A stretch of 64,000 nt of DNA from Pempheris klunzingeri (Eukaryota; Chordata; Actinopteri; Acropomatiformes; Pempheridae). The stretch spans positions 9,057,470-9,121,469 of the forward strand of contig NC_092012.1 in the NCBI RefSeq assembly GCF_042242105.1, read 5' to 3'. The notes under the pieces were generated by a model. The model was not told the DNA's origin. It ran no database searches and worked only from the letters and a program-made list of their open reading frames with translations. The position numbers and the translations under genes were made by a program. Positions within the stretch are counted from its first letter, which is position 1. Each line of letters begins with the position of its first letter. Below, in pieces: positions 9,720 through 61,900 of the stretch.

Positions 9720-23204
<13,485 letters not shown>

Positions 23205-28400: not shown

Positions 28401-31104
28401 ACAATATATGAGGCAAATGCCACCCCTGTAAGTGCTAACAGTTGATGAGGCTGCTGTAAATTTCACAGCTCTCTTATGCTCGTCTGTGAGCCATGAAACA
28501 TCAAACACATAAAACATGTGAAGGAGATTCCCCGTTGTGCTGTAACATGCCTCAATGCATGCTGGGTTGTTATTAGATGGAGCCCGGGGCGTCCTCAGAG
28601 GATTCAGGAAAAATGTTAAAGCCAAAGACAAAGACAAAATGAACAAAACTAAGAAATAAAACAAAAAACTTTAATACGCTCACCTCGACACGTCCGCCCG
28701 TCATCCAGCAGAGTGAATCCAGGTCTGCAGTGGCAGTGAGTTCTGGTCTGGGTCTGGTTGGTGCTCTGGTTGTTGTGCTGGGAGTGAGAGCACAGCTGGG
28801 AACAGCCCCCGTTGTTAACTGAACATGGTGTCAACTCTGTAGACAAAGAGTACGTTTCAAGGGTCGTCACAATTACAATGAGAGAAATGAATTTGAGCAT
28901 TTATATGAGGAGGGTAATGGTAGATGGTGGATAGGATTCCAGTAGGAAAACACCCTTGTATCAATAATGCAACAATACAACCATGAAAAATCAGAATTTA
29001 AAGGTTGATAAGGAGTTTATAATACTTACCCAGACAAACAGGCGTGATCCCGCTCCAGGTGCCCCCCTGCTGGCAGTAGCTGTGTATGTCTCCATGTGCT
29101 AGGGTATAACCAGGGTAGCAGGCATACTGTATGTAGTGTCTGTACTCCCTGGGACCTGGGTTCTCTACATTACGAAAGGAGAAGGTACCATGAGCGGGCA
29201 CAGGTGGGTACGGGCACACGGGTCGTCTGCTGAGGTACAGAGACAACGGAGGCGGTTCGGAGGTGGCGTTTGTCGTGAGGTTGTGGTGTTCAGTCCAGAG
29301 AGATCTCGGCTCAGTCGTGGCTGTGTTGTTTGTGGGGAACGTGACATTAAGCAACTGTGTCTTCACATTGGAGTGGGTGGAGCTGGGGCTTGAGGAGGTT
29401 GAGGGTGAAACAGTGGGAAGAGGGGGTGATGAGGAGAGGGCAGAGGAAGCAAGCGATGGAGTGGAGGATAAAGTTGAAGTCTCTGTGCGGTGTACAAACC
29501 CAGGCTGCGACGAAGGAGGATACTGGAAGCCATTTTCAGCCTGCTGGTCTTCATCAGCAGTTTGTGAAGAGCTTGTTATGACTTCAGAGGGAGTCACGCC
29601 TTTCTTAGGTGTGACAGCTCCTACAGACTTCAGTGCTTTTTCACTGCCGAGCACAGGGAGAGCAGCCATCACAGCAGAGATAGCTGGTGTTTGGGCTGCT
29701 GAAAATGCTGGAGGTGAAGATCTCTCCGTCCCTGACACTAATGACAGGGTGGATGAGACAGTGGTAGATTGATGTGATTTAGATGCAAACACTTTTTCCA
29801 CCTTTTCTGCTTCCCTGTGTGAAATGTTTGACTCTGAGCCGTGCCTCCCAGTTCCTGTTTCTGCTTCTTGAGTTTGAGTTGCCTCTTGAAGTTCACCCTC
29901 ATGATGGGTTGTTCTTTGATCTTTGGCTTTAAAATTGAGAAAAAACTCAGTGTGCTGCTGCAGATAGACTTTTGGGTTAGTCGCTTTAATCCCTTCGCTG
30001 TTGGACATTTGGGATGGTGTACTAGGAGACAAGTCAAATTTGAGGTTCGCTTCTTCGGTGGCAGTGTTAGTGAGGGTGTAGTAGTGGGATTGTTGCAGGG
30101 TCTTCACAACTACGGCAGCCTGGAGGTACTGGTGTATGTTTGGCTTTTGCATACTCACACCTGAAACTGAGCTCATCATGTCGGACTCTAACATGGAGAA
30201 AAGAGGGAACAAAAAGATCAAATGGGAAAGAATTAAGGGCAAGACAAAGGTTATGTTCATCAAGCAATATGAGAGAATGAATGCATTGAGATTAAAAGGT
30301 TGTTCAAATTTAAAGAAATACTTCATCATTTTGGAAAAAAAACTCACTCGCTTCTTGCCGAGTGTTAAGTGAAAAGACACCTGAGAACGGTACCAATCTT
30401 CTTTCACTTTAGCAGTGAGAGTTTTTCATAGTCACCTTTGCATACAGGTTTTGTGCTGTTCCACCTGTGGCCCTTACAGTACAGCATCGAGGGTCCGTGT
30501 AGCTTAAAGCCACTATTACAGCTGAACACTGCCCAAGAGCCGTCCTCATTCATGCTCATTGTGCCGCTGGTGAGTGGCCCTGGGTTGGAGCAGCCAGAGC
30601 CTGCAAGAAGACATGATAAAAAAAAAAAGTTTGCGTGTGACCAGGGACCTTTGTCTCCCCTCTCAACTCCCTTTAAACTCTCCACTGTAATAGAAGCAGA
30701 CTCAAAAATACTTGAGCATAAATGAATGCATCTACTGACCACACCAGAAATCCTAAAATGAAAAGGTTTACAGTACATGCTCATGAAGGAAGCTCCTCAC
30801 CCACACAGACTGGTGGGTCCCGGGACCAGTGTCCAGACACACAGCTGTTGGTTTTGTATCCATGCAGCTTGTAGCCAGGGTGACAGCGGAAGATCACCAG
30901 CAGTCCACCGTAACGGAAAAACGTCTGCCCGTTCTCCAGGTGTCTAAAACCATTACATCCTTCAGCTCCACACACTGTAGACAGTTTCACAATGAATGCC
31001 CGTGGCTTTTTTTTTTTTTTAACAACACACAAGTGTGTAAATAAACTTGAAGTACCTGGAGCATACATGCAGATCAGAGTCACCAGTGCTGCCAGAAGCC
31101 CCAT
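25403..31104 (-). CDS. Secreted sushi / mucin-like / EGF-repeat protein, unnamed
   Basis: Minus-strand exons 31104-31056, 30974-30801, 30600-30436, 30187-29030, 28836-28684, 27672-27550, 27455-27327, 26646-26437, 26347-26231 and 25557-25403 (stop 25405-25403) join to 810 residues. All internal introns are phase 1, typical of shuffled extracellular modules. Order: signal peptide ([15 protein letters not shown]), sushi 1 (about 17-74), sushi 2 (75-129), a Ser/Thr/Pro-rich mucin-like stretch in one 1158-base exon (130 to about 450), sushi 3 (to 515), then six EGF-type modules. Several are calcium-binding by their DxDEC or DINEC starts ([45 protein letters not shown]). There is no transmembrane segment and no fibulin C-terminal or G2F domain, so it is probably secreted into the extracellular matrix. 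I know no human gene with this layout between PHKA2 and PPEF1. Function is unknown. Confidence 0.88.
25735..25885 (+). repeat. Dispersed teleost repeat fragment
   Basis: Contains TTTATGCTATGCTAAGCTAA and, further on, GTATTTTCCAAAATGTTGAG, the two hallmarks of the element better preserved at 57040-57235. It lies in the last intron of the sushi/EGF gene. Confidence 0.55.
26187..26220 (+). repeat. (GT)n microsatellite
   Basis: Short, slightly interrupted TG tract within 15 bases of the donor of the EGF exon ending at 26231. Confidence 0.85.
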
Positions 31105-31570
31105 CTTCAATGTGTGTTCAGGAAGACGCTGAGACCTACTGAGCTGAGATACCTCTCATAAGATTTGGAGGGGAGGGAAGACTAAAGAGATGTACTTGGA
31201 GAGTGAAAGTGGGAAGTACATGAGAGGTTGAAGATTGAGGGGAGGGGACATGCGGTCTGGGAATACAACAGGATGGGCAGATGGGAGGAAGGAAAGGAGG
31301 AAGGAGGGGTGAGATGGTGCATACGCAAAACACTCTGACAGATGGATGGGGAGGTATCAGGGGAGATGCTGTTTTCACCTGCTTTATAGTAAGTCGCAAC
31401 AATTTTACTCCTTTTGATATAAAAAGTGATGACATAAGCAAATTTTTCCCAAAAAGGGGAGCTACACTAAAGAACCTCAGCACTAAAACGGTCACCACAC
31501 GTCCTTGTTTGCCTCTCAACCTTCACTTCTGCAGCCTATTGCAACTAGAGTGTATGTGCACCCATTTAAA

Positions 31571-32520: not shown

Positions 32521-35500
32521 TCATGAATACTTCTCTCCGTCCACCTTTCCGTTGAGCTGCTGATCTTTGCTGTCCAGTTTGTGTACCACTCTGAAGGCCT
32601 CTAGGAACTCAGTGAAGTCTATACTGCCGTCCTTGTTGAAGTCGATACTTCGCGCCAGGTCATCGATGGCTCTGTCGTCGATGTCAACTCCGAGGTGGGC
32701 ACTGAAGAGACGCCAGGTGTGACGAAACTCCTCGATGGAGATCAGACCTGAACACACATGCACCCACGTCACTGAACTTGTTTTGAGTTACTGACGCGTC
32801 ATCTTCAGTGAGATTCAGTGCTGCTTTACCTGAATGATCTTTGTCTATAATGTTGAATATTATCTCAATGTCTGTCCTGTATCTGAACAGAGTTTCAGCC
32901 AAGTTTGGAGTGACCTGAAAGCAGAGAAGGTGCAAAAACAGAAAACTACTTAACAGCCACTAGCAGTAACATGTGATCAATTAAATGTTACACATCATGA
33001 AAAATTGTGTTTAAGATCTACGTAGTATCTCAATGCTATAAACAGTCTCAGTGTGACTGAGTAATGCAAGTGCCACCAAGTGCCTTTATTTCTGCACATA
33101 TTGCATATTAAATTTCTCACTTCTGCAATCACATGCTTCCCTCCATTTTTCTTTGTGCCATCACTGGCCCATTTAGGAAGCCTTTTCTCTGCCATTTTTG
33201 TGTGGATGCTTGGATTCAGATTGCATTTAAACTACAGAAATGCCTCATATTGTTCCAGTCAGGTGAAAAACCTCAAGTATCTTCTTCTTTGAGGTGTTAT
33301 TTTTGCATGCATGATTGCACACTTAAGAAAATTCACCACCCCTTTTACTTTCTGATCGCTTAAACCTGGATGAAGCAGACAAATGTTTTCTGCAAATGTA
33401 GTTGTGTAAAAGGTAAATACTTTTTAACATTTCCCTCTGAAATTAGTTAAATTACTGGGATCTTAAGCACTTGGGTAAATCCACCTCTGATATGACGACC
33501 CCTCCTTGCATCTAACCTGAGGCAGAGTAATCTCTGGTCCCATATCCTCAAAGCAGGACTGATACTGCACATTGCCATCTGGTGCCAGACGGGCTAAGTG
33601 TGGACGCAGGGTCCTCCAGGGCAGATCCAGTCTCAGCACAGACTCCAACACCTGAGCCCATTCACTGACCGACACACAACCTAGAAAAAAGACATGTCGA
33701 CATATACCAACTATACGTGTCAACCTGTAAATATACATGCGATAAGTGAAGTAAATGGAGAGAGAAGAGTGCACCGGTGTTATTCTGGTCGTGCTGCTGG
33801 AAGCCTGACATCAGCTCAGAGCGATGGCTGAACAGCTTCTCCTTCAGGGCCCTGAGAGCAGAGCCTTCAGCAGCTCGTACTCTGCAAACACACGTCATTA
33901 ACCTTGACTGAGCTTTTTTACAGATGTCTCAACAGACAAACGCAGAGAATCCTCACACTGGAGAGCAGGGGTGTACTGTTATTCAGCCCTGGACTTATCC
34001 ACTAGGACTAGCCTGAGGGAGAGGGGGTGTGCTTGGGTCAAGTCGGTGAGGTCCTGGGACACACACTCAACACGCTTTCATGTGCACTAAAATGACAGAC
34101 AGGGCTTGGACGGCTGGTAAAAACTTTATGGATTTTTTTTGACGGTCCACCGGACCACTGGGATTAGTCCCAGTAACCAGATGGCAAATACGCCCCTGTT
34201 GGAGAGGCTGGAACCAGCTGATAAACAACTTAAATTGATGGTCAAAATTGTTCAACTAATCGTTTCAGGACACCCAGCTGTGGGAAATCTGTCACATTTT
34301 ACACAAACATACAGAAACCAGACACCTGTTGTACCTCTGTGTCAGGGTGAGTTTGCGGGTTGTGCGGCTGACTTGATACTGGTAGAAGCGTGGAACCAGC
34401 TCTCTGCCAACTTTGATGTAGGCACCACGGTTGCTTCCCTCCTCATAATAGTTTGATGCTGAGAAAATGGTTATCACCTATAAAAAAAAAAACACACACA
34501 TATCTATTTCTCCAGACTCAAACATATTAGACTGTTGGACAATCTAAATTAATGCATTGCATCCTGTCTACCTGTCCGCCATGACAGAGCTCATATCCCT
34601 CCTGTTTGCACTCATGGGATCTGATGAGCAGCTGGAGTCCGTGTTGGAGCAGCAGTCTCTGGGTGACGTCAGGGCCGAAGTAGCAGCCTCCTCCTCTGAA
34701 TGTGTTAGGAGTGCAGCCTTCTTGGGTTTTAGGGTCACTCCACAATATATCCACTATCTGCAGGACAGAGGAAAGCAGATAAAAGTATAGAATAAGACAC
34801 AGAAGTTGAACAAGCTTCATTCATTTACCACTGAGTCCGCTCCTCTGACCTGTTTCCATTCCCGTTCGTGTTGCGGAGGAGAAGGAGGGGGAACAGAGGA
34901 CAGAGAGTCCAGGAAAGGCACTTGCAGGACATTGATGTAAGGCATGCTGGGAGTAGACGGGCACGGACGAGGTGTGAGGCAAGACGGAGTTCGAGGAGAG
35001 CAGAGCGAAGACGAGGATGAGGAAGATGATGAGGAGGAAGAAGTGGAGGCGGTGCTGTCTTGCCGACTGAGCCTGCGTCGCCTTTTTCTACAGAAAAAAA
35101 AAAGGTAGAACAGAGTGTCTGTCACTTAAGAAAAGAAGTCTAAGTGCACAATGAATTTAATAAAACAAAACATGAAACATCTGTAACTGTCTGTGGGCTG
35201 CTGCCACACCTCTGGTTGGGGGTTCTTTGGTTCTTGCTGTGGCTGCGACTGCTGCTGGGACGAGAGCTGTCTGACGATCTCATCCTCTTCATCTGTCCGC
35301 AGGACTGACCGATGTCCAGCTGCTCCAAACTGCGTCTGGGAAACCTCAGGGCAGATTTCACCTACAAGAGCAGAGACAGGAAGGCAGAAATAAAGTGAGA
35401 ACCCTTTAACATTAGTCAGTACTGAATTCAGACTAATGTTTTCAAATGACAGATTCAGTGTATTCCAGGAGTTACTTTGTAATGAATTGTACATGTTACC

Positions 35501-38500
35501 ACACCCATGTCCTCCTCTACTTCAAGCAGCAATTTCCTGCATTTCTCAGAATTACTTAAAATAACTTCATGAGAGTAAGTGCCTTTAATTGTAATCCAAT
35601 GAGAATGTTGTTGAAAACCCATGATTATTTTTAATTTGTTCGATTTTTTATCAAAAATGACAGTATGCTGGGCCAGTCACTCAAAAGAACTAAAGCACAC
35701 CAACAGTAAGGCCTTGGTATGTGATGTGCAGCACTGAAATTTTAAAACCACTGCCACCGCAAATCTGCAATAATGAAAATTTTGAGGGCAGCAACCCCCC
35801 TGTTCTGGGAGGTAAAATTATTGTTTTTGTCAATGGTGTCTGGTGGGTTTGAGTAGTTCGATACAAAGCGCTGTTTCTTGTTAAACAAAAAGGATTCTAC
35901 GGGTCTATTTCTGTAGGGGTCCTTTTAGTAATGCTGTCAGACACTTCAAATAACAATCTGAGCCTATCAGTGGCAAAAACAAGCACTTTTAGAGGATATA
36001 CTTTCATTGGGTGCAATTTCTGCAAGGGATTAAATTACAGTCATTACATCCTGTTCACCGCCAGTGGAGGCAATCAACTGGACCGATCCCGAAAATCTGT
36101 CTGCCTACCAGTGATTTTGAACCCAAACTATGTAAAAGTAAAATACTGGAGTTATCCTTTAAATCACATTATTTCAGCATGGCTATATTCAGCATGGGTA
36201 TTGTTTTGTTTTTAAAATCAAGCAGAAGCCAAGGCAATCAAACTGAATTAATTCAGGGATTAAACCATGCAAACACAAAATTAATATAACAGAGGTATTT
36301 TGATACAAAGCAGGACAAACCTTGAATTTCTAATGAGTTTATATTTTGCTTTTGTGGTGCTTTTTCAATTAAATTTTAGCATAAACACGTTGACACACAT
36401 TTTATTGGTAATCCAGACTTGCTGCAGACAAAAAGGGCTTATGAACACGGTGTTGAAGAGATTCTAATGTATACAGAGTTAAACTAAAAACTCAGAAGCT
36501 TTGTGGAGACAACATCTAAATGGAGAATATGAATTTGAAGTGTTTTCTGACCTCTAGTGACCAAAATTAGTTAATGCACTTAAAAGACTGGATGCAGGAC
36601 AGGTGGAGAATGGCTTTTTGTTCCTTTTTCCCCCACCGACCTTATGCCTCTCTATGGAACTGAGGAAGTCCAGGTCAGTCTGGTCAGATATCCCTCCGTG
36701 AACAATCAGGATCTTTCCATCAATGACTGTCGCGATGGGCAGAAGGCTGAAAACGTCCTGAAATAGCTGGAGGATCTCACGGCCGTGAGTCTGCACACAG
36801 TCACACACAGTAAGAAAAGAACTCATTTCACAACTGTGGCCCTCTGAGCCAGATGAACCCACCCAACTCCACCAGCTGTGACGGTCAGCAGTTACATGCT
36901 ACAACCTGCAGCTGAGTTCTATACAAATAAGAGCAGAATAGTGATGGGTGTCTGAATTCACTGTACCTTGTACTTCTGCATGACTTCTTTTGTGAACCCA
37001 TACCTGAAACAACAAGTAAAAACCTCACAATGGGACGTTGTTAGTCTAATCCAACCACCCATTTGAGGGACAAATGTTTTTGTTTTTTTTTCTAATTTGT
37101 ACTCTTCTTCTAATTTACCTGAGGTTCATTATGTGGTCTTCATGGTTTCCTCGGTTCAGGTGCATGTAGTCAGGGTAAAGCAGAAGGTAGGCAAACAGGA
37201 GCACGACCACTTCGAGCGATTTTTTCCCACGGTCCACAAAGTCCCCATTGAACACATATGGCGTCTCCGCAGACGGAAGACCGTTCTGCACGACAGCAAC
37301 ATGCCGTAATTTTAACACATTGTCACAAATTCAAGAGCTCGAACAGAACTCTTATGTATGATTTACCTTATAGAATATGAGAAGTAGGTCATCAAGTCGC
37401 CCATGCAGATCTCCTGTAGCAAAAGGAAAATCACAACAATGGAAAAGTCAAAATGTTAATTTCTGCTGATTTTCAGACGATGCCTAAAATTCCTCAACGT
37501 TATGAAAACAGCGCAGTGAACTGCTCCACCTCAACCATCAAACAGTGTGTGTTTTACTCATAAGTATTCTTGAGTTTAATGAGATGTGAATCTGCAGGAG
37601 GAGGCAGCTTAGGACGAGGAGTCAAGTGCCTGATCAGTGTGCACATAAACAAGGTCTCTTTTCATGGAAGGCTGCCATTAAGATACAGTCAACTGTATTT
37701 AAAACACATTTACAGACATCAGCGACCATTTAACAAGTAAGCAGCTCATTTAGTTATTCAGTGGCTGACAGTGCTGTGCGACGTAGCGGGTGCACAAGCA
37801 GCGCCATCACTGACGCAAATCGTTGCAATGAGACTGAGACGTTTTCCACTTTTTTGTTTTGCTTTGCATGTGTGTCCTCAAAGATGGCATAAAATTTTGA
37901 ATGTTGAAGAAACAAGTGAAACTGAGGTCACGGTCACTCACCACATACAGTGATCTCTTTGGTGTAGGAAGTTGACAGGTGGATGATGTTGGGCATCTGT
38001 TTGAGGAGCTTCTTGGTCTCATACAGCAGCTGCAAAACATATCTAGCATGTAGCGTCTGTGTGGAGGAAAAGCACTGAGTCACTAAACGCACCCAAAAAT
38101 CTAAACCAGACAATCAAAGGGAAGAGCGAGAAACACCAAAAAAAACATATTCTGTACCTGCTGCTCCTTAAATGCACTGAGGAGAGCGTTGGTGTCAGAG
38201 ACGGAGAGAGGGAAGGATAGTCGGGGCCCGGTGTACGACTCCGGAACAGGGATCAAGCTGTAGCAGGTCTCTCTGTCTAACCAGGGGTCGACCACCGGGT
38301 CCAGCAGCTGGGAGATCAAGTCTGGGGGAAGCGGTGCAAGGAGATTTTAACAAACTGACCACAAAACCTTATCAAGGCACAATGTGTACTGCATCCTTTC
38401 TGCTCTAAACATGGAATCATTGTGGAATCTACAACTGAGACGCTAAAAGTAGGCAATATCAATAAAATCTTCACCCACAGCATATGTAATCTTATTTCAC

Positions 38501-40575
38501 AATGTCTATAGACTGACGATGCCACAAGAGGAACTCCACCAACTGTACACATCAAAGTCTGTTTATGGTTCTTGGAGAGTACTACTGCATATGTGAAAAA
38601 AAGTTGCCTATTGTCGCTCCAGAGAGAGCTGCAAGAAACCTGATAAACTGCCTTAAATGATGTCACATGAGTCAGCTTCACCTTTGGATAAACACAGAGT
38701 TTGAAAATAAACCAGATATGACGGTGAGGAGTTAGAAAACACTGAGCTTACCAGACCTCTGCGGCCTGCCCTCCTCTTCTCTACATCATCATACATTAGC
38801 TGCTATTAACCCAAATCTCTGATCATGGACAGTTCAGTCAGAGTTGTATTATGGGTAATGTAGGCACCAGGTTTTGACATTGAAGAGAAATGTATGGAAT
38901 AAAGAAAGATGATATTTGTTGTTCCTCTTTATTTGTGAAAGGCCGCTGAGCAGCACTCAGATTGTGTCTTGTGCAGCAAGGATGAAAAAAATCTTTTCGG
39001 AGTAGAATAGAGAAGATATGCCCACTGAACTAAAACATATCCCATGCACAGATTTTAAACTGTAGTTCCTTGTAATGAACAGCTTGATATGACACCACAT
39101 CCAGCTCTGTGTGCCCTCACTGTTATATTTAAAGACCACTCCAGTGTGCTAATGAAAACTGATGGCCCCCAATTTATGCACACAGACAAGGCACGAACAG
39201 GCACCTACCAACAGGCCTATTTCTCTTTTGTAAGTCTTTTATCCATTTCCTCCTCAGTATCTCTGAAATGCCCTCTATTCTGTCACACACAAACACAGAT
39301 GCTGTATGTAATAAATGCAGACAACAGAGTCTGGCCTCTTTGCATCACTTATGCTGACTCAGTGTAAAACCCATGAGGCTAGTAGAGGCTGTAGATGTGA
39401 GGGCTGACCTCAGGAGTCTGCGGAGCATCGTGCTTTTTAGATGGACGAGTGGTTAAATACATACTTAAGCCACAGCTGTGTCAGTGCAACACACCAACAC
39501 ACTGGCCTCCACATTCAGAGCAGTTGCTAAGCAACAGGGTACACGCAATGGGCTTTCTAATCTACACCAAAATACAGTGGCATGACTAACAAAACTGGTG
39601 TTATATTGGTGGAGGTGAGAAATGCATCCGTATACAATCCTCCTATGTTAGAATGTGTAAAACACCAACTGACAAACTGGTTTAAATGACTGAATTACTA
39701 AAATTTCATCACTCAGTATTTGTATTTACCTAAAAAATCTGTTGAAAACATCCTTCTTTAATCATTCAGTTCCATATAATAGCACAACAGCATCAAATAA
39801 ACCTACAAAGATAAAGTTTTAAGATCAACAACAATACAAAATGCTCAGAACAATCTGACAAACGTAAGTTTCCATATGTTGGACACAGGCGGAGGCTGAG
39901 GGTGGTATTAGTAGTGATTGATTTACGTGCAATTAAGTAAAACACACTCGTAGATCCTGCATTCACTGAAAATGTGTTATATCAAATCCATATGGCAGCA
40001 CTAATAGACAATATTTCACTCTTAAATAAAAAGAGCTTTACCCCCAACGTTTTAAAAAAAAAACAGGGATGAAATCAGACTTTTAGATACACTTACATAC
40101 ACTACACATAAGAGAAGAGGATTTTGCTTCCTAACCTGGACCATTTCCATTCAGCTGGGTGAAGTTGTCGAGCATGAAACTGAAGAAACTGGAGAGCTGA
40201 AGACAGAAAAACAAAAGCATTGAGCATACATGTGTACTTTTTTAAGCTGCATGAGATGCGTGTGCTGAGAGTCACCTGTAGCTGGTCCTGTTCCCCGGCG
40301 TATTCAATGGACTGAAAGATGTTCCAGGTGTACCTGCGCCTTATCTCCAGGCGGGCTATGTAGCGCCGGTACCATCGCTGGATCAAAACAGCTGCCTTCA
40401 TAGCTACGACACAAGACTAGCGGTTACATTTTTAGGTGGGAGACATATTTAAATAGCTGCAATCACATTCAACAACTGATTCTGATCCAAAAGCTGAGCC
40501 TCCAGCATTTTTTTTTTTTTATAAATAAGCACTCTAAATATATCATATGTAAAAATGTACAGAATGTACAGAAAT

Positions 40576-41930: not shown

Positions 41931-43758
41931 GATGGCCAATGCTGATGCTGATGATGATGATGTGATGGGGTCACATCAGTCAGTTTATCCTGAGCTGGCA
42001 GCACTGGGTCACACCTGGCTGGTGGCATGGGAGACCTGAGAAAAACTGACTTTCACTCTTTGGTTTATCAGATGTCAGAGTCCTCTATAGAGTCTTACAA
42101 ACACTTCATCCGGTCTCACATCACAGCAGCAGGGCTTGCTTCAGTGAGAGTTTTCTCCACAGTGAGAGGCCTCCTGGAAAATAGAAGTAGCTGAGCCACC
42201 TGATGCACTACTAAACCTTTTAAGGGTCGGGAATGAATCACACATGAACATGCATGTAATCAAGCTACAGCCAATATTGTTAGAATTATATTGTGATGGC
42301 TCAATCCAGCTTCCTTCAGCCCTTGAAAACGTGCTGGAAAATGATGCTTCATTTTACAAACCTCACAAAACGATAACAAAGCCCTGGGAACAACATTAGG
42401 CGCGTAAATGGCTGCCAATCACGCTCCAACACTCTCAAACGGCCCGTGCCTTTAACAAATCAGGAAATCAAATTAAAATCAACCTAGAAGGGGGAAATGC
42501 TCCTTGTGACGTACCGCTTCCCAGCATTTTCACACAGCAGTGGTGACGGTTTAGATAAATAATCAGCTGTTTGCGTTGGTTCCTACCTGCTGCTCGTATC
42601 CGCGCGATGCGGAAATCATGAATGGGACGCAGAATCCATGTGATGCACAAATAACTTCAAAGGTTGCGCTAGAAGTCCTCTCAAAAACTGTTGAGAGAAG
42701 GAAGTAATAGCGGTGAATTGTTTCCAGATAAGCTGCAGAGCTGCTGCTGCTGCTGCTGCTGCTACGGGAGGAGGAGAAGGAAGAGACGAGAGCTGAGGAG
42801 GCGGAGGCATCACCAGGTGAACTGAAGGCACAACACAGGAGGGAGGGCTGCTCCACTTTGCTGTTCCTCCTTAAATTACTTCAGCAGTATTTCACAGGTG
42901 ATCACCACCATAACTCGGTCCAAACATAGAAATCATACCTGTGGTCCATCTGCAGCAGTTTACACTTCAGTTCTTGACCAGATGTTATGAGAAGTTCTAA
43001 CCATGAGGCTTGCTGTGGGTCATCATGGTCCCCAGAGGATGAATTTTACCGATAAAGCAACTGTACGCAGGGACCACCTTCAGGCAACTTATGCCAAGTC
43101 TTTTCCTTGATTTCAAATCCAAAATGTGTCCAACTGAATTCAAAAAAGCTTTTTAAAAAGGCTGCTGGAGGGTTATTTGGACCATCAATTTTTAGTAGTT
43201 TAGTTTAGTAGAGACAGTCAGATCCAAAATAAACATCCACATGTGTGAGCACAGTAAATTAGTCTAATTTAGTCCTGAACTGATATAGAAGAGGTTACTG
43301 TATGCATGTAAGAATTTCCTCTCAGATGCCTGGAAGTCTGCTGTGGTCCAAAAGGAAGACAAAATTCAAAACTGGTTCACTCATGTTGTTGTAGGATTGT
43401 GGTGGAAACTTGGTTAAGTTGACAGGAGCAAGTGACAGACTTCACAATTAAAGCAGAAGCAGTTAGAAAACTGCCAACTCCCACTTTTTTCTGGCTGCGT
43501 TTTGTTTTGAAGGCAGAGCAGCCCGAACTACTGGATTTGACCTGGAAGTGAGTGCCCACCTTCTGCCCCAATGTCACCATTTTAACTCACTCATGCACTC
43601 TTAAACCTCAGCATTTGAGTTGTGCAACTTGAAATTGTTAAACTACTACTATTAATAAGCTCTCTCATCTTGCATAAAGGCAACAGATTAAAAATTGGAA
43701 TAAAGTCTTTAATGATAAAAGTTAATAAAATAAATAAAATTCTTGATTGTCCAACTCT
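41931..43758. other. PPEF1 5' flank and spacer to the H2B-like gene
   Basis: No clear coding exon. The PPEF1 5' UTR exon(s) and promoter should lie here. A GC-richer patch at about 42580-42860 containing a GCT/CAG triplet run (42735-42762) is the best promoter or first-exon candidate. At 43020-43045 TCATGGTCCCCAGAGGATGA matches the start of the repeat at 59900-60265. Confidence 0.4.
43328..43392 (+). repeat. Direct repeat, left copy
   Basis: ATGCCTGGAAGTCTGCT, then AGACAAAATTCAAAACTGGT and TCACTCATGTTGTT; nearly the same sequence lies at 44636-44716. The two copies flank the H2B-like gene. Confidence 0.6.
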
Positions 43759-44209
43759 TCATGCTGCGGCTCTCGTATGAATCCTCCGTCGCACAAGACT
43801 GACAGCAGCAGTGATCTCCTGCAGGGTGATGGTCTTTAGTCTGTTGGTTTTTGATAGCCGGGAAGCCTCCGAGCTCACCAGCCTGAGCAGGACAGGTCTG
43901 GGAAAACTGAGGCGGCTGACCAGGAAGTCTGGACTTCGCATCCCAGCTGAACCAGCCTGCAAAGATGAAAATAGTCAAAGGAGGCTTTGAGCACCGGGAA
44001 AGACGACATTACTTTGACCCACTTTAATATTAAAGTCATCCTATGAAAAATAAGAATCTTTGATCACATTGTAAACACATGTCCACTCAAGTTACAGCTT
44101 TCACTGTCCTGACCTCTTTATGAGTCCTGTAGATGAGAGTGGAGTGAGCTCGACTCCTCTTCTTTGTTTGCAAAGGAGTCCTGCGCACTGCTCGCATAGG
44201 AGCCTTCAT
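43759..44209 (-). CDS. Divergent histone H2B-like protein, two exons
   Basis: Exons 44209-44114 (32 codons) and 43956-43759 (65 codons plus stop) are joined by a phase-0 GT-AG intron to give 97 residues. The basic N-terminus (RTPLQTKKRSRAHSTLIY) resembles the KKRSRKESYSIYVYK entry into H2B helix 1. EASRLSKTNRLKTITLQEI is very close to the end of H2B helix 2, loop 2 and helix 3 (EASRL, N, TIT, EI, AV at identical spacing; 14 of 26 positions identical by my hand alignment to canonical H2B from memory). It ends after RRRIHTRAAA, so the H2B C-terminal helix is missing. Prolines fall in what should be helix 2. Canonical H2B genes have no intron, so this resembles germline H2B variants. ATTAAA near 43706 on the minus strand could be the polyA signal. 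Function, presumably sperm or egg chromatin, is inference. Confidence 0.72.
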
Positions 44210-44635
44210 TTCACTCAGTTTAGTGAAAAACACACAGCTCACAAAAAGAAAGCTACAGGTGAGATTTAATACAGGTTCATCAGGAGGGCAGCAGGAAGGA
44301 GAGCAGCAGAGAAAAGAGTGTGTGAGGAGGGAAAGTGATGCTTTATAATGAGCACAAATTGAAAACAGCTTTCCTTAATTAGGCTTAATTACTTCCACCC
44401 ACCAGACGTCTTTAGCCTGAGTATCTACAGTAGAAAGAAAGTTCACGAACATGACTGTCCGCTCTTTTGTTTTAAACATCACTGATGATGACAAATAGCC
44501 ATTGTAATTCGTAATTTAAATGATTTACAAAACTTTGACACTGATAAAACAATTCAGTGTCATATTGATTTTAAATCTGACTGTTATCCTCTAAAATGAG
44601 TAATACTTTTAAAAGGACAAAGAGGTTACAGCATG

Positions 44636-44716
44636 ATGCCTGGAAATCTGCTCCAACAGAAACACACACACAGAGACAAAATTCAAAATTCAAAACTGGT
44701 TCACTCATGTTGTTTT
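44636..44716 (+). repeat. Direct repeat, right copy
   Basis: Copy of 43328-43392 with a short CA expansion and a duplicated AAATTC unit inserted. Same orientation, about 1.3 kb apart. Confidence 0.6.
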
Positions 44717-45178
44717 TAATTGTTTTATTATCTGTGTAAGATATTTGGAGTTAATTCCCTAATTGTTCTATATGCAACAAAAACAAACACATATGCACCT
44801 TTTTTTTGTTCTTTGCCATTTATTCATGCTTTCACTATATGAATGTTTGAGATGAAGTTTTGGATGCCATGGTTTTATTCTTGAGATAACAGCAGGTGAA
44901 GAATGCTAATCATGGTTGCGTCTAAAAGATAAATATATGTTGCTATTGTAAAGCTTTAGCTTTGAACATTTTTTTTCATTTTACTCCCTCATTTTATCAT
45001 TATTCTTTCTTTCTTTCTTATTTATCAAAATTAACATAATAATACAAATGGCAAATGCAATAAACATATGAGGAGAGACATAAATTCACCAAAAAGTAGA
45101 CCTTCTGGTCAATTATATGGATCACAAGGCCCAGCATAAGCCATCACCACCCTCCAGCCCCTTCTTTCTCACTCTCTT

Positions 45179-45180
<2 letters not shown>

Positions 45181-45228
<48 letters not shown>
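45181..45228 (+). repeat. (CA)n microsatellite
   Basis: Uninterrupted CA repeats about 280 bases upstream of the RS1 start codon. Confidence 0.95.
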
Positions 45229-45230
<2 letters not shown>

Positions 45231-45419
45231 AAATCTGTCACAAACCCGATTGACCACTCTGGCTTTTGCTTTTTTCTGCAGGATTTTTGACTTGACCTCT
45301 GCGGCTGTGCAGTGATTTCCAGAATGTATGGCGGTGGTCGTTGATGGTGGTGGGTGAACAGCTGTAGGAGGGGCTTTGCCAGATAAGGACGGCATTAGGT
45401 AAAGCCATTAGTGTCCTGT

Positions 45420-45434
45420 GGATTATTGTAATCC
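45420..45434 (+). promoter_or_regulatory. Paired CRX/OTX-type sites upstream of RS1
   Basis: GGATTA (45420-45425) and TAATCC (45429-45434) form an inverted pair of the K50 paired-type homeodomain core, 74 bases upstream of the RS1 ATG. CRX is known to drive retinal RS1 expression in mammals. The motifs are seen; their use here is inferred. Confidence 0.5.
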
Positions 45435-45507
45435 AGCCTCTCTATCACTGCTGGCTTGGTTGTTCAGTGTGCAGTGGGTCTCGTCTGGTTTTGGACAAGG
45501 TTGGAAG

Positions 45508-48500
45508 ATGGCTCTCAAAGCGCAGCGTTTCCTGCTGGCCCTGCTTCTTCTGGGAGCAAACGGTACGATTTCAGTCTTTACTCTCTGGTCCTCGTGAACC
45601 CATTTTCTGGTATAGAACTGTAAAGTCAGAAATCTTTGAATGACTTAAGTCACCTCAAACTGGACAACATATCGAAAGAAACCTCTGAAACTCTGACCTC
45701 AAAGGACAAACTGACTCCTACGTGAGAATTTTACGAAATATAGCAAATTTCCTTACTAATCCTTGAGATTATCATCCAGGATTTTCTTTGAAAACATAAA
45801 ACGTAATTGTCTGTGTCTGCATTGTATTTATTTATCAATTCTTAATGTGGATAAATTGACAGATTGATGTACAGATTTTGTTTGCTACAATGGGTGACTA
45901 CTGTGTCCTAACACAGTCTTCTTTTTTCCTCCTCTGTGCTTCATTGGCTTGCTGGCATTTGTTTTGTCTTTCTGTCCATCTGTCCAACAGTCTTCATCAG
46001 CATTCCTGCTCAAGAGGTACGAAGAAACCTTAGCAAAAGAGATGTTTTAACTCTTACAGCATTAAAATCAGCAGAATTTTACATAAAGTGCAGTTCAGAG
46101 TTCTTTTATACACTTTTAGATCAGCCACACCAGAGACAGCTCAGCTTGGAGTTTAGCAATCTCTCTCCAGTTGACATTGGTCAATGTCAAATGATTGCCA
46201 TTGAAAGAAACAGTGGAAATCTGCTGTAATGCTGCAATAATGAGATATAAGAGGGCTCCGTCTCTTTGCTACATTCATTAAATTATTCTTTTTACATTTC
46301 ATTCTTTGCAATGTAGCTGCATTTCCAAATTTTTTGTATTTCTTATACTGTTTAAGATTATTCCTATTAAATGTTGTTTGTGTGTGCTTGTATGAGGCGG
46401 CAGTGTCTGAGGCATGGACCAGCAGGTCTTGCAAATGTGACTGTGAAGGAGGAGAGTCCCCGACTGAGTTTTCTTCCATTGGAACCGGCTCTTCCATGGT
46501 GCGAGGGCTGGACTGCATGCCAGGTAAGAACCATCAAATACAGTCTTCTCTGCAATGACAGTTTTTTTTAATGCCAGTAACCTGTGACTTTCATAAAAAT
46601 GCATCCATTCATTAGTAAAATTTTTTGATTTAGAGCACTTAAATCTCAAACTGATATTGTATCCATTCATGGTGGATTTTTGTCTCCTCAAATAAAGAAC
46701 ATTAACATTTCACATCACATGCACACTTAAACCACACACTGAGCACAGATTTTGTAATCTCTAATGAGGTCACTAATTGACCCACTAATTAAGAGACTAT
46801 TGTTGATTAAATGATTAAAATGAACCATTAAACTAATAATAGTACTTGTAACAAGGACAAAATTGTGATGGCTGTGTTAGATTCAGATAATGAGCATGTA
46901 AAGCTGTGAGCTGACCGTCGATTATTTTCTCAATGAATGGATTCGTCTTTATTGATTATGAAATCCAAAACCACAAATCTTCACATTTGAGAGACAGAAA
47001 CCACAAATTAAATTTTTGGGGCATTTTGCTTGATAAATGACTGATTGGTTAAATTCCCCTTGATTGATTAATTGACAAATCCTTTAATCTCTACAATGTA
47101 GATGGACATGTGTGTGTGTGTGTGTGTGATAGAGATAGAGACAGAGAGGGGGCATCTCTATATATACAAGTATGCATGAGTGCATTAGACTCCAGATTTG
47201 ACGCCACAGGGTGGACATGCTCCACTGGTCATCCTCGGAGAAGGCGATGCAGATGGAGTCATGAAAAGAAACATTAATACCTCTGCCAAGGCTGTACAGT
47301 CCACTAAATGTGCTATTTCAGTAATAGAAAATGGTTGTCTGAATCTGGATCCTCATTTCCATCAACATAAACGCAATACAGACAGATAGAGACAATCATT
47401 GGATACACACGGCACATTTTTTGCTCAAAGTTGCTCACAATGTTACTACTGATGGATCCACATACAAAACTACTCACTTGGTTGAAAGCAAAAGTTCATT
47501 CTTGTCTTTGGAAACAGCAGCTAACAAAATAATCTCACTACAACCTCCATCAGATGTCCGCTTTCGATCATATCACATCATATTCATCAGCAAATGGAAA
47601 TCTCTGTTTTACCCATCATTTTAAAGACTTGGCCCTGGGTTTAACTTTCCACCAAATCTAGTGAAATCTGCTTTTTTTCAAAAACAAAAAAAACAAAATT
47701 ATGAAGAATCAAGTCAGGCTGAAAGAAGAAGAAGGTAGAATTGATGTGCACTGAAAGGGTCTTTCCTCAGTGAAGCAATTTGTGTCAACTTAGCCACAAA
47801 TCACACGGCAGTCGGTGATGGAGAGGAGAAAGAAGTTCAGCAGATTGTCATTATCTCAGGACATGATGCTCAGGTTATGGGGCCCTTAATAAACTCTGCC
47901 GATCGCACAATCACAGAAACCAGTAATTACCATGACATGGTCCCTGTGATGATAAATAATGACTGAGGCAGACTGTCGTGCTCGTTCTCTGACTTTATTG
48001 CACCTTGGGCCTCACCTTTGGCTTCCACGCTAATTCAGCCGTCTGAATCTGTTTTATTTTAGCTGTGAAATACATTAGGGAGGACTACAGAGTCACTCAC
48101 AGTGCTGTTATGTAAACACTTATCTCCTGACTCACACAGGCGCTGCTGCAGCTCTATGCATTGTATTATTGGGATTAGGCAGGATATGACCCTGTGCCAG
48201 ATAATCTTAAGCCAGTAGTAAACAAAAGCGCAGCAGATATCTGCACCACGTAACCACAGCTGATGTTTTTTCTGAAACTGCTGAGAAAAAAAAAAAAAAA
48301 AAAAACTCACTCATGCAGCTCTCTCATCTCTCCCATTCATACTTCCAAAAAGTAAGCCCATGTTTACTAAGCCAACAATAGTCTTGCTCTCATGTGATTT
48401 TAGTGGAAGTGAGAGGGCAGATTGACAGATGAAAACATGGGAGCAACACCGAGCTAAAGCTGTGGAGAGTAGAACATGGCCATCTGTCCGCCTGCCGCCC

Positions 48501-50629
48501 TAATGGACATCACTGATCTCTGATCACTGTGGAGAATTAAACTGCAGGCTTTTAGGATGGGATATGGGTCACACTGGGGCTGCTAACTGCAGGGGCTTTG
48601 GGGGCGGAAGGGTGTGAGGATGGGAGTCAGCAGGGGTGAGGATGGAGAGAGGGGAAAGGATAGAGAGATGAAGAATTAAGCACCTACAAGAGCTTAGTGA
48701 TGATCATTTGCTGGTCACATTTCAGTGTTTTACTGCTTAGCTGCTAGCAGGCGTGTTTGTGTTCTCTTCTATCGTAGGCAGTGGGTGGAGTGGGGGGGTG
48801 ACCTTGAAGTCCATGCAGCCAAGAGAAAAACAATTAACTGGAATAACAAAAGAAATGTAAATCAGGACCTCTGTTATAACTTTGGCTTTGATGCTCTTGC
48901 AGAGTGTCCGTACCACAAGCCTCTGGGCTTTGAGGCTGGATCAGTGAGTCCAGACCAGATCACCTGCTCCAACCAGGACCAGTACACAGGCTGGTTCTCC
49001 TCATGGCTCCCGGACAGGGCCCGGCTCAACAGTCAGGGCTTCGGGTAAGTACAGGCCGACTAGATAGTAAATTTGCAGAGATGTACAGCGGCATGTATAT
49101 TTAATCTCTGGCAATGATTGCTAAGATTTGTTTTGATTTTAACCCGCAAAATGTTGCTCTTGCCAGAGACGGCTGACTGTTCTGTCTCAGTGAAAAGACC
49201 CTAATAAATAAATGTCTGGGCACTTGCCATCTGTGAGGAACAGTATTAGCAGAAATGCACTCAAAAAATGTAACCCGTCTCTCATTACGTAAGGTGCATT
49301 TGGTAAGGTCGACATACCAATATGCTCTTACTTGAAAACATTAAAATATAAATAAGACAGGCAATGCAAGAAGATATATGGCAACTGCTGACTCTGAGGA
49401 GCTGTTGTGCTATTACATTGAAAGCTATTAGTTGCATTTGTTTTTTCCCCTCCAAATATTACAAAAGCACATAACACAAGTCACACAATAGACTTGTGTT
49501 ATGCATCAGACTGGGAACTGAACCTCAATCCTAAATCTTTTACTCTATTGAATATTGAAGAGTAACTTAAGGACCCTTTAAAATCATGGGATCCCATGAC
49601 ATCACTAGTGGGTGTGGTTACAGTTACAACAAGGCCCACGTCTGACCACACCCAACCAGTCCACTGCTGGTTGGGGGTCAAGGATGAAACGGCCTTGAAA
49701 CCAGAGAGGCCTGTAAAATACAGCTTTTTTAGCCTGATGTTAGGTCACTTTTTAAAATGCATAAAGAGAAATATCAGCTCTGTATTTTGTGGTAAAAAAG
49801 AGAAAAAGAAGAGAGCAATAACAGTGAGAATTAAAGCCCCACAGAACGTAAATAAAAAGAGAGAATATAAGAAAAGGAGCTGGATAAGAAAAAACAATTT
49901 TAGCCCTACATGTTTAAAAGTGGTAAGCACAGACACGTGTGTGCATGTGTTGGTAACCTGTGTGACTGCTCCGGTGGTTGTGTTTCTCCTCCAGGTGCGC
50001 CTGGCTGTCAAAGTTCCAGGACAACAGTCAGTGGCTGCAGATTGACCTGAAGGAGGTGACGGTGGTGTCAGGGATCCTCACTCAGGGCCGCTGTGACGCT
50101 GACGAGTGGATCACCAAGTACAGCGTTCAGTACCGCACAGACGAAAAGCTCAACTGGATCTTTTACAAAGACCAGACTGGAAACAACAGGGTCAGTTGGA
50201 ACCAGCCAAAACTAACAAAACACTATAAAGCATATGTGACGCAAACAAAACACTAGGCAACATCTCAGGTGCCAGTGGTCTCATCCACACAAAACTTAAA
50301 AGGACGGGGTACATTTTGACAACAGTTTTGCCTTTTGAAAACATCACACTGACTGCCCAGATAGTGATGTCATAATTAATTAATCTTATAATTAACATTA
50401 AAAGCATGTCTGCTTTTTTCAGTCAGTGTTAATGTCTCAGCTAATCCATCCTGCCATTTCACTCCTCTCTCCTCAGGTGTTTTATGGAAACTCTGACCGC
50501 TCCTCGTCTGTGCAGAACCTCCTGCGGCCGCCCATCGTAGCGCGCTACATCCGCATCCTCCCCCTTGGATGGCACACACGCATCGCTCTGCGTCTGGAGC
50601 TGCTGCTCTGCTTGAACAAATGCATGTGA
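45508..50629 (+). CDS. RS1: RS1, retinoschisin
   Basis: Exons 45508-45562, 45991-46016, 46397-46523, 48903-49044, 49995-50190 and 50477-50629 join to 232 residues. Exons 2, 4 and 5 are 26, 142 and 196 bases, the same as I recall for human RS1. The protein is a secreted octameric adhesion protein on photoreceptor and bipolar cell surfaces. Signal peptide [18 protein letters not shown] is followed by a short divergent linker, the Cys-rich RS1 segment CKCDC, and a discoidin (F5/8 type C) domain running from [13 protein letters not shown] to [15 protein letters not shown]. The C-terminal Cys residues (LLLCLNKCM) that help assemble the octamer in mammals are kept. It is convergent with CDKL5 without overlapping the exons seen here. 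The identification is firm. Confidence 0.97.
46915..47105 (+). repeat. Teleost dispersed repeat, copy 2
   Basis: GATTATTTTCTCAATGAATG, then TTTTGCTTGATAAATGACTG and TTGATTGATTAATTGACAAA; the same family as at 4805-5017 and 56690-57012. Located in RS1 intron 3. Confidence 0.6.
47109..47128 (+). repeat. (TG)n microsatellite
   Basis: Short TG run followed by a GATAGAGA-type purine tract in RS1 intron 3. Confidence 0.8.
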
Positions 50630-58900: not shown

Positions 58901-61900
58901 ATATTAGTGGTCTTACTATTGGTGCCTTCTTCTTTTTCTTTTTAATGGCTCTGAAGAAGCCTTGTTTTTCCTTCTCTTTGGTGGGCTCTGGAGGATTCAT
59001 GACCATTGCTTCTGCTGTAGTCCTGCAAGAAAAAACGTGGAAACCTTGTATGACTCATGTTTGTAATTACAAGCACAGGATTAAATCGTGACTTCTTCTC
59101 ATGTGTCTCACGCTCCAGGGCAAAACCTCAATAATGCAATGAATCGACCACATATAGAGAACAAAAGACACTGCAATAACGCCCACAGCACGATGCCAGG
59201 CCAGTTCAAAAAATAAATTCTTACCAGTCAAAAGCCGTCTGGCGTTTGGAGTGGTTGGCCATGGCAACAGGGTCCACAACAGGTACAACAGGTACGACCG
59301 GCCCTCTGACCTGTCCGACCCCGTCAAGGAAAGAGGAGGAGTTATCTGGTCTGGGGGACGGGACTGAAACAAAGAGGACAGAAAATTATTAAACGTGTCT
59401 TATATATATCAACTGAGCATTTATTGGTAAATTTCAAAAGGACAGCCTGCCTTGAAAATAACCAATCTGTGATGTTTAATGCATTGTTTTGTATTGCAGT
59501 GTTATTCGGCAATGTTTTTTCCACCACATTCACCTCATCTATTTAAGAATTTTCACTGTATAATTGTTAGACACAATGAAAACAGCAAATGTAGAAAGAA
59601 ACTCTTTGTTCCTTGATTCTAAATCCTGACATTTACTATTAATCTGTCAGAAATCCCCAAATTTTGTGTAAATCTTGTTTATCCAGAGCAGCTCTCTCAT
59701 AACATCGCAATGTGACATTACGTCATTTGACCAGTCATCCATGTTATTCCTCTTTGTTTCAGTCCAGTTGCTCAACTCCTAAGGAATAACTATGACCTGG
59801 AAGACTGAGAATCTTCACAGACTCAGTCATCCATGTGTACTGTAAAAACATAATCCTTTAAACCTTTCTATTTGTTCCTTTTGGGTTGTTTTTCCCTTGG
59901 ACTCATGGCCCCCAGAGGATGAATTATACTGACTTAACTAACAATGAATTAGGTACTGATATCTGCATTACCACTACTGCTACTACCACTACTACTAATA
60001 ATGAGATTAATAATATAATTCTAATAAGTTATACTTTATTATATTCATGCCCAAAATGGACATGCCAAACTAGTGACATTCCCATCTGGCTCAGCTGTAC
60101 TTTGTTTTTAGAGCTAATTAGCAAATGTTAGCATGCAAACATGCTGAGTAACATGGTGAATATGGTCATAATACATGCTAAACACCAGCATAACATTAGC
60201 ATTTAGCTCAAAGCAGCGTAGTGCCGAGGTACAGCCTCACAGAGGTGCTAGCATGGCTGATTCTCAGTCATGTTTATTCGCTTTATTCTATTTTATTCCA
60301 TTTGTGCTTATTTTTACCTTCTATTCTGTTCTATTTATATGTCTTTTTACATTGCCTTGCATTTCTTTATATCTTGTCTAATTGTCATGTAAAGCACTTT
60401 GAACTGTCTCTGAAGCCACAGTATTATATGATGGTATAATACGTGCTGGCACCTATTCTGTCTAAGTATAGGTCACCTGGCACATTCATCAAAAAACGTT
60501 TCTGGCTTCTAGGTTAAATTCTGGGTTATGCAGCCCACTGAATATGTGCAGCAGTGCTCATCCCTTCATTGTGGTGGGGGTGTCATTCTTAGTTTTAAAA
60601 ATATACAATACAAAGTGATAATTAAGTAAATAAGTGAGTGATAATTGACCATGTTTCTAGCTGAAGATGTCCTGTCAATCTTTTTATAGACAGCTCTTTT
60701 ACAATGGTGGTCTATGGAGAAAGCGCTATTTCAGCCGCAGGGTTTTTTTCACTGCAATACTGCAAGTGGCTTGTGGGGAAAAACTGGAAACAAGGCTTCT
60801 TATAATACATGCATGCATTACACTCAGTTTGTTGTTTCGTGATTCCTGTTCCTTACCACGGTAGAAGCTGCCTACTCTCCGAGGCATGGACTCAGTGAAG
60901 ATCATCCTGTTCTCCTTGGAGGAACCTCCATCCTCACCATGAGGGTCGTGATACATACCAACCTAACAAACACACACATCACACGGACATGGACAAACAC
61001 ACAAATGCACACATGGACACAGGACCACACAAAGTTCCTCAGTATCTTCAGTTTTGTAATTGATAATCCGATTTTATCTCACTTCACTGCTTATCATTAG
61101 CGATCACAGTCTTTGCTGGCTCACATCACAAGACATTCGGGACAATCTCAGAGCTTTTCAGTGAGGCTACATTTATACCAGCGACAACGTGCAATGAAGC
61201 TGTTGACCTGAGTAGAAACATAAAAAGCTATGGGAACCAGCGGGCACAAGAGCTACTGTCTGTCTGTGTTCGGTGAATTGGTTGGACGTAGGGAGAAGTC
61301 AAGGGGTCGGACCTCGTTTTTAGAGCGCTGTGTATGAAAAGCAGCAGTGTTGTCCCTCGTAGAGTCTTTGATGGGGGCACAAGGGTGGCTCATGTCTTTA
61401 GGGGACTGCTCACTCTGTTGAGAAGACGGACAGGCGTAGGTCAAAGCAGACTGGAGAAGGAGCATGAAGCAGTGGCAATGATAATGTGAGACAGTGACAG
61501 TCCCTGCACACACACATCAACTCATGAAATATCCATACACATGCACATTTTCAAAGTATGTTTTTAAGAGCTCACCCTTCAACAGTCTTATATTGGTTAA
61601 TATCTTGAATGTGCAGGCTCAGGAAATGTGGTATTTTTTTTCTTTGTGTACCCATTTTTCATTAAACTGCCTCATCGTCTCCTGCTTCAGTCATCTCCAA
61701 GATTCACTAACTATTCCCAATAAACTGCATTAAATTGTGGTGTTCAGGTGTAAGTTTTAATTGTTGGTGGAGAGCTCCGGAGCTACATTGATGTCTTCTT
61801 GGAACATGTGTTTTGTATTAATATTGTAATGATAATGTGTCTTGCATATGTCATGTGTTGTGTTGTGATTTTTCGTCATAACAAGACTTGTAACATATTA

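Follow-up and report, generated by a model that had tools for sequence, protein, structure and literature searches.

A candidate two-exon H2B variant gene without the C-terminal helix, located between a PPEF1-type gene and RS1 in the fish Pempheris klunzingeri

Within the window (i.e., the whole 64,000-nucleotide stretch of Pempheris klunzingeri DNA analysed here), the gene at 43759-44209 is, judging from its sequence, most likely an H2B-derived variant gene, and probably a functional, replication-independent histone variant gene of two exons. The spliced product is 97 aa long and its frame is intact (MKAPMRAVRRTPLQTKKRSRAHSTLIYRTHKE / AGSAGMRSPDFLVSRLSFPRPVLLRLVSSEASRLSKTNRLKTITLQEITAAVSLVRRRIHTRAAA). 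The gene model and the elements around it are as follows, with splice-site scores computed from splice-site frequencies:

44342..44347, minus strand: TATAAA, possible promoter element 138 bases upstream of the ATG (motif only)
44114..44209, minus strand: exon 1, coding, 96 nt, 32 aa, starting with ATG (reading frame)
44105..44113, minus strand: 9 extra coding bases (VRT) gained with the alternative donor 44105 (ACA/GTGAAA; score -2.23, rank 87 of 248 GTs)
43957..44113, minus strand: intron, 157 nt, phase 0, GT...AG (reading frame and splice-site scoring)
43759..43956, minus strand: exon 2, coding, 198 nt, 65 aa plus TGA (reading frame)
43708..43713, minus strand: ATTAAA, possible polyadenylation signal 46 bases past the stop codon (motif only)

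Exon 1 encodes a basic tail, in which KKRSR occurs, and the beginning of helix 1 of the histone fold (STLIYRTHKE), and exon 2 encodes H2B helix 2, loop 2 and helix 3, followed by a basic tail (RRRIHTRAAA) that replaces the C-terminal helix. The product has a computed pI of 12.0, a mass of 10963 and 22 K/R vs. 4 D/E. An earlier note, made from the letters alone, had proposed this two-exon frame with a basic, KKRSR-like start, and its coordinates, GT-AG boundaries, phase and basic start all hold. ATTAAA also occurs at 44720, 44270 and 44028.

As an H2B match, exon 2 stands far above chance on its own. Its ORF reaches 19.4 bits against the H2B profile, while the runner-up among the 2118 ORFs of the window reaches 6.3 and the maximum over 40 block-shuffled windows is 11.7. 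The spliced protein scores 23.7 bits, vs. at most 13.0 for 10000 shuffles of the same protein, with exon 1 being the weaker part of the match (about 4 bits). The product scores with H2B and not with H2A, H3, H4 or H2A.Z, and its H2B match over the fold exceeds that to other histones. When the 97-aa product was compared with the PDB by phmmer, the best single-copy H2B chain was found at E=4.7e-4, and the top match (E=1.9e-8) was a chain with two H2B stretches, individually only 0.061 and 0.011; 59 of the best 60 of 173 matches are named H2B or H2B fusion, the remaining one "Histone H4". A search of Pfam-A returned no family at E<=10. No relatives were found in viral and prokaryote collections, as expected. 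The EASRL/N/TIT/EI/AV signature of H2B helix 2, loop 2 and helix 3 is present, and the 14 identities that had been counted by hand over 26 ungapped positions are exact for human H2B. Identity over the fold is 21/62 (34%), and the loop-2 residue R86 of H2B is replaced by L.

Of 84 blocks 1.5 kb in length, 74 contain a two-exon frame of at least 97 aa; with frames this long so common, the weight of the gene model lies on the H2B match. Donor 44114 (GAG/GTCAGG) scores 2.29 and ranks ninth among 248 GTs, and the acceptor (TTTGCAG/GCT) has a pyrimidine content of 0.71, equalled or exceeded by 33 of 292 AGs. Donor 44105 would instead give a 100-aa product with 26.0 bits to H2B (vs. 23.7) and E=2.4e-4 to a single-copy H2B chain by phmmer. 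That is, splice-site strength favours 44114 and H2B fit favours 44105, and the two criteria conflict. Within 4 kb there are 93 candidate first exons of phase 0, and the best six of them all represent the same frame (two ATGs, three donors; 23.5 to 26.0 bits), whereas the next different frame reaches 20.4 bits and the median is 19.1; the 97-aa model is fifth of the 93, and the top candidate uses donor 44105. The exons have a G+C content of 54% vs. 36% in the flanks, with third-position G+C of 0.53 and 0.56 and hence no coding bias.

The frame stops right after helix 3, as had been claimed, and thus lacks the helix in which E105, E113 and K120 of H2B are found. The first two residues are the H2B share of the nucleosome acidic patch, a main docking site for chromatin proteins, and K120 is the ubiquitination site. 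A substitute C-terminal-helix exon was not found on the same strand from 43956 to 40300 (best score 16, compared with a window-wide best of 27). The alignments bear out the prolines in the helix-2 region, where one or two inserted residues are also needed to align the product to H2B. A model of exon 2 only (single sequence, pLDDT 65.5) shows a helix-loop-helix at the positions of H2B helix 2, loop 2 and helix 3, with helix 2 broken before the prolines. The best 50 Foldseek matches listed for this model are without exception histone, nucleosome or chromatosome entries, none of the matches listed reaching E<=0.001 (best 0.36), and the matches listed by VIA-align are led by AAA+ ATPase lids. Given the prolines, the break in the model and the inserted residues, a canonical histone fold of the product is doubtful.

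If the gene is functional, the basic start of its product, together with what is kept of the fold (the second half of helix 2, then loop 2 and helix 3), could allow pairing with an H2A-type partner, and the basic tail, together with loop 2, could contact DNA. Since the protein ends after helix 3, it would bring neither the H2B share of the acidic patch nor the K120 site, and we propose that particles containing it would consequently be looser and that proteins reading the acidic patch or ubiquitinated H2B would not be recruited to them normally. The parallel with the variant H2B.N suggests a possible role of such a protein in germ cells or early embryos.

The gene sits between RS1 and a PPEF1-type phosphatase gene, where it had been placed before; we take the phosphatase to be PPEF1 rather than PPEF2 based on sequence and synteny. 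The matches that mark the neighbouring genes are:

49966-50253, plus strand: frame of RS1, retinoschisin match at E=4.3e-39 (sequence match)
40102-40416, minus strand: frame of the PPEF1-type gene, IQ motif within 40105-40416, above cut-off (domain match)
36557-36898, minus strand: PPEF1-type gene, metallophosphatase piece, just below cut-off (domain match)
34530-34820, minus strand: PPEF1-type gene, metallophosphatase piece, above cut-off (domain match)
32687-32959, minus strand: PPEF1-type gene, EF-hand, sub-threshold (domain match)
22742-23047: phosphorylase kinase C-terminal piece (domain match)

The gene shares its plan with H2B.N (H2BN1), which excerpts of PMC8857922, PMC9526256 and PMC11742582 describe as having two exons, an intron inside the histone fold, a lost C-terminal helix and less than 50% fold identity to ordinary H2B. 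The intron likewise lies inside the fold here (by alignment to H2B), the comparison being one of plan; the introns of H2B.N and H2B.K share one position within the fold according to the excerpted text of PMC8857922, which also states that H2B.N lacks most of the C-terminal helix, arose in mammals and is expressed mainly in oocytes. However, human H2B.N is autosomal, at 17q11.2, with a fold identity of 42.4% (PMC11742582, in excerpt), compared with 34% here, and H2BN1, found only in mammals as far as the excerpts of PMC9526256 go, overlaps MYO1D-DT, whereas a PPEF1-type gene and RS1 flank the gene described here. Because the genomic place differs despite the same plan, we do not assign the gene to H2B.N, but describe it as an H2B variant of H2B.N-like architecture, set apart by its locus. 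A connection with the X-linked variants of mammals, left open in the earlier note, is not supported, the published variant of the same plan being autosomal in human.

Other known H2B types differ in further respects, as described in excerpts of the papers cited. H2B.K (H2BK1) of bony vertebrates, which traces to bony fish, also has its intron inside the fold, but its fold is close to that of ordinary H2B, a loss of the C-terminal helix is not reported in the excerpts, and its human neighbour is ABCF2 (PMC8857922, PMC9526256); the 21/62 identities found here do not fit such a nearly ordinary fold. The mammalian H2B.L (subH2B) is similarly divergent, with less than 50% identity over the fold, but is intronless (PMC8857922) and merely 4 residues shorter than core H2B (PMC10356639), as opposed to ending right after helix 3; H2B.L and histone variant naming are treated in PMC10356639, PMC3380720 and PMC5223428. 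H2B.W (H2BW1/2) is another divergent mammalian variant (PMC8857922), but is located at Xq22.2 and has longer tails (PMC8857922, PMC11742582), and the local score of our product is 50 with H2BW1 vs. 76 with ordinary H2B. Replication-dependent H2B shares the loop 2 and helix 3 signature, but its genes are intronless with a stem-loop 3' end (PMC9526256) and its C-terminal helix is present (PMC8857922). The intron within the frame, a difference the earlier note had pointed out, does not fit this identity, and no histone stem-loop was among the 8 Rfam matches at E<=10 for 42000-46000, as expected for a polyadenylated variant gene.

Given the base composition of the exons, a frame would be open by chance with a probability of 0.02, and the frame stayed open in 28 of 500 neutral simulations run to similar identity, which is suggestive, but not proof, of selection. 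The same two figures can also be counted toward a lineage-specific H2B variant gene that is decaying or dead, with its frame still open by chance in this species or individual. The broken helix 2, the low identity and the absent C-terminal helix fit such decay, as does the frequent loss of comparable variants, e.g., of H2B.K and H2B.N in rodents (excerpts of PMC8857922); yet the ATG, splice sites, stop codon and H2B signature are all intact, and we regard decay as unlikely. Slightly less likely still is a true gene whose protein works outside the nucleosome, as a basic structural protein with a partial histone fold, like H2B.L in the sperm subacrosome. While the helix-2 prolines and the lost C-terminal helix speak against a normal place in the octamer, and H2B.L provides a precedent (the same possibility being raised for H2B.N in excerpts of PMC8857922), the KKRSR-type tail, loop 2 (NRLKTIT) and helix 3 are still H2B-like, which suggests retained contact with DNA and H2A. 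It is very improbable that the exons are alternative 5' exons of a PPEF1-type transcript that resemble H2B by chance: they are on the same strand, 3.3 kb upstream of the IQ-motif frame, but the H2B-like frame has its own ATG and stop codon and its H2B match is far above chance.

We favor a working H2B variant gene based on the H2B-specific homology, the agreement of the six best first-exon candidates on one frame, the exon G+C content, the TATA and poly(A) motifs, a frame that is open despite the low fold identity, the helix-loop-helix of the exon-2 model with its histone-type Foldseek matches, and the published precedent for the same plan (PMC8857922, PMC9526256, PMC11742582, all in excerpt). 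Against it we count the missing Pfam family, the helix-2 prolines, the weak model, the R86 replacement, the lack of third-position bias and the donor conflict.

In the excerpts of PMC8857922 and PMC9526256, the H2B class that lacks its contribution to the acidic patch is confined to mammals. The all-variant survey in the former covers, in the excerpted text, 18 mammals and chicken as the sole non-mammal, with fish and other non-mammals listed for H2B.K; therefore, H2B.N may not have been looked for in fish. We tentatively put forward, at slightly below even confidence, that the class without the C-terminal helix, published from mammals only, also exists in a non-mammalian vertebrate, either because H2B.N is much older than assumed and its gene has moved, or through a second origin of the truncation. 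Such a counterpart would make the age or repeated origin of the truncated class testable and could offer an animal with accessible eggs and embryos for study. If this is true and the truncation arose twice, germ cells would repeatedly select for nucleosomes in which the H2B half of the acidic patch is missing. The gene, if expressed, would be an undescribed relative of mammalian reproductive-cell histones; the word "undescribed" in the earlier note is consistent with the finding of no paper on such a fish gene among the matches listed from open-licence PubMed Central, although a paperless database entry may exist. The missing Pfam match suggests that domain-based annotation can overlook genes of this kind.

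Several further features were observed in the window. The H2B-like gene is bracketed by an exact 31-base direct repeat (43360-43390 and 44684-44714), upstream of which the similarity is weaker. The repeat could be the trace of an insertion or of a duplication, or could represent a paired control element; no third copy was found by blastn of 42501-45500 against the window (E<=1e-3). A 23-base inverted repeat pair, 83% complementary (43214-43236 and 44562-44584), likewise brackets the gene. At 28998-31155, between the phosphorylase-kinase-like and PPEF1-type genes, minus-strand frames carry three Pfam sushi matches and a stretch that looks rich in Ser/Thr/Pro by eye; such a neighbour is not known from human Xp22. 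The plus strand has, at 1199-2209, a long RS-rich frame that includes a CCCH-like stretch; this frame has no Pfam match at E<=0.01 and is presumably ZRSR2-like. Finally, a 30-base direct repeat, 90% identical (43023-43052 and 59903-59932), perhaps represents dispersed repeat DNA.
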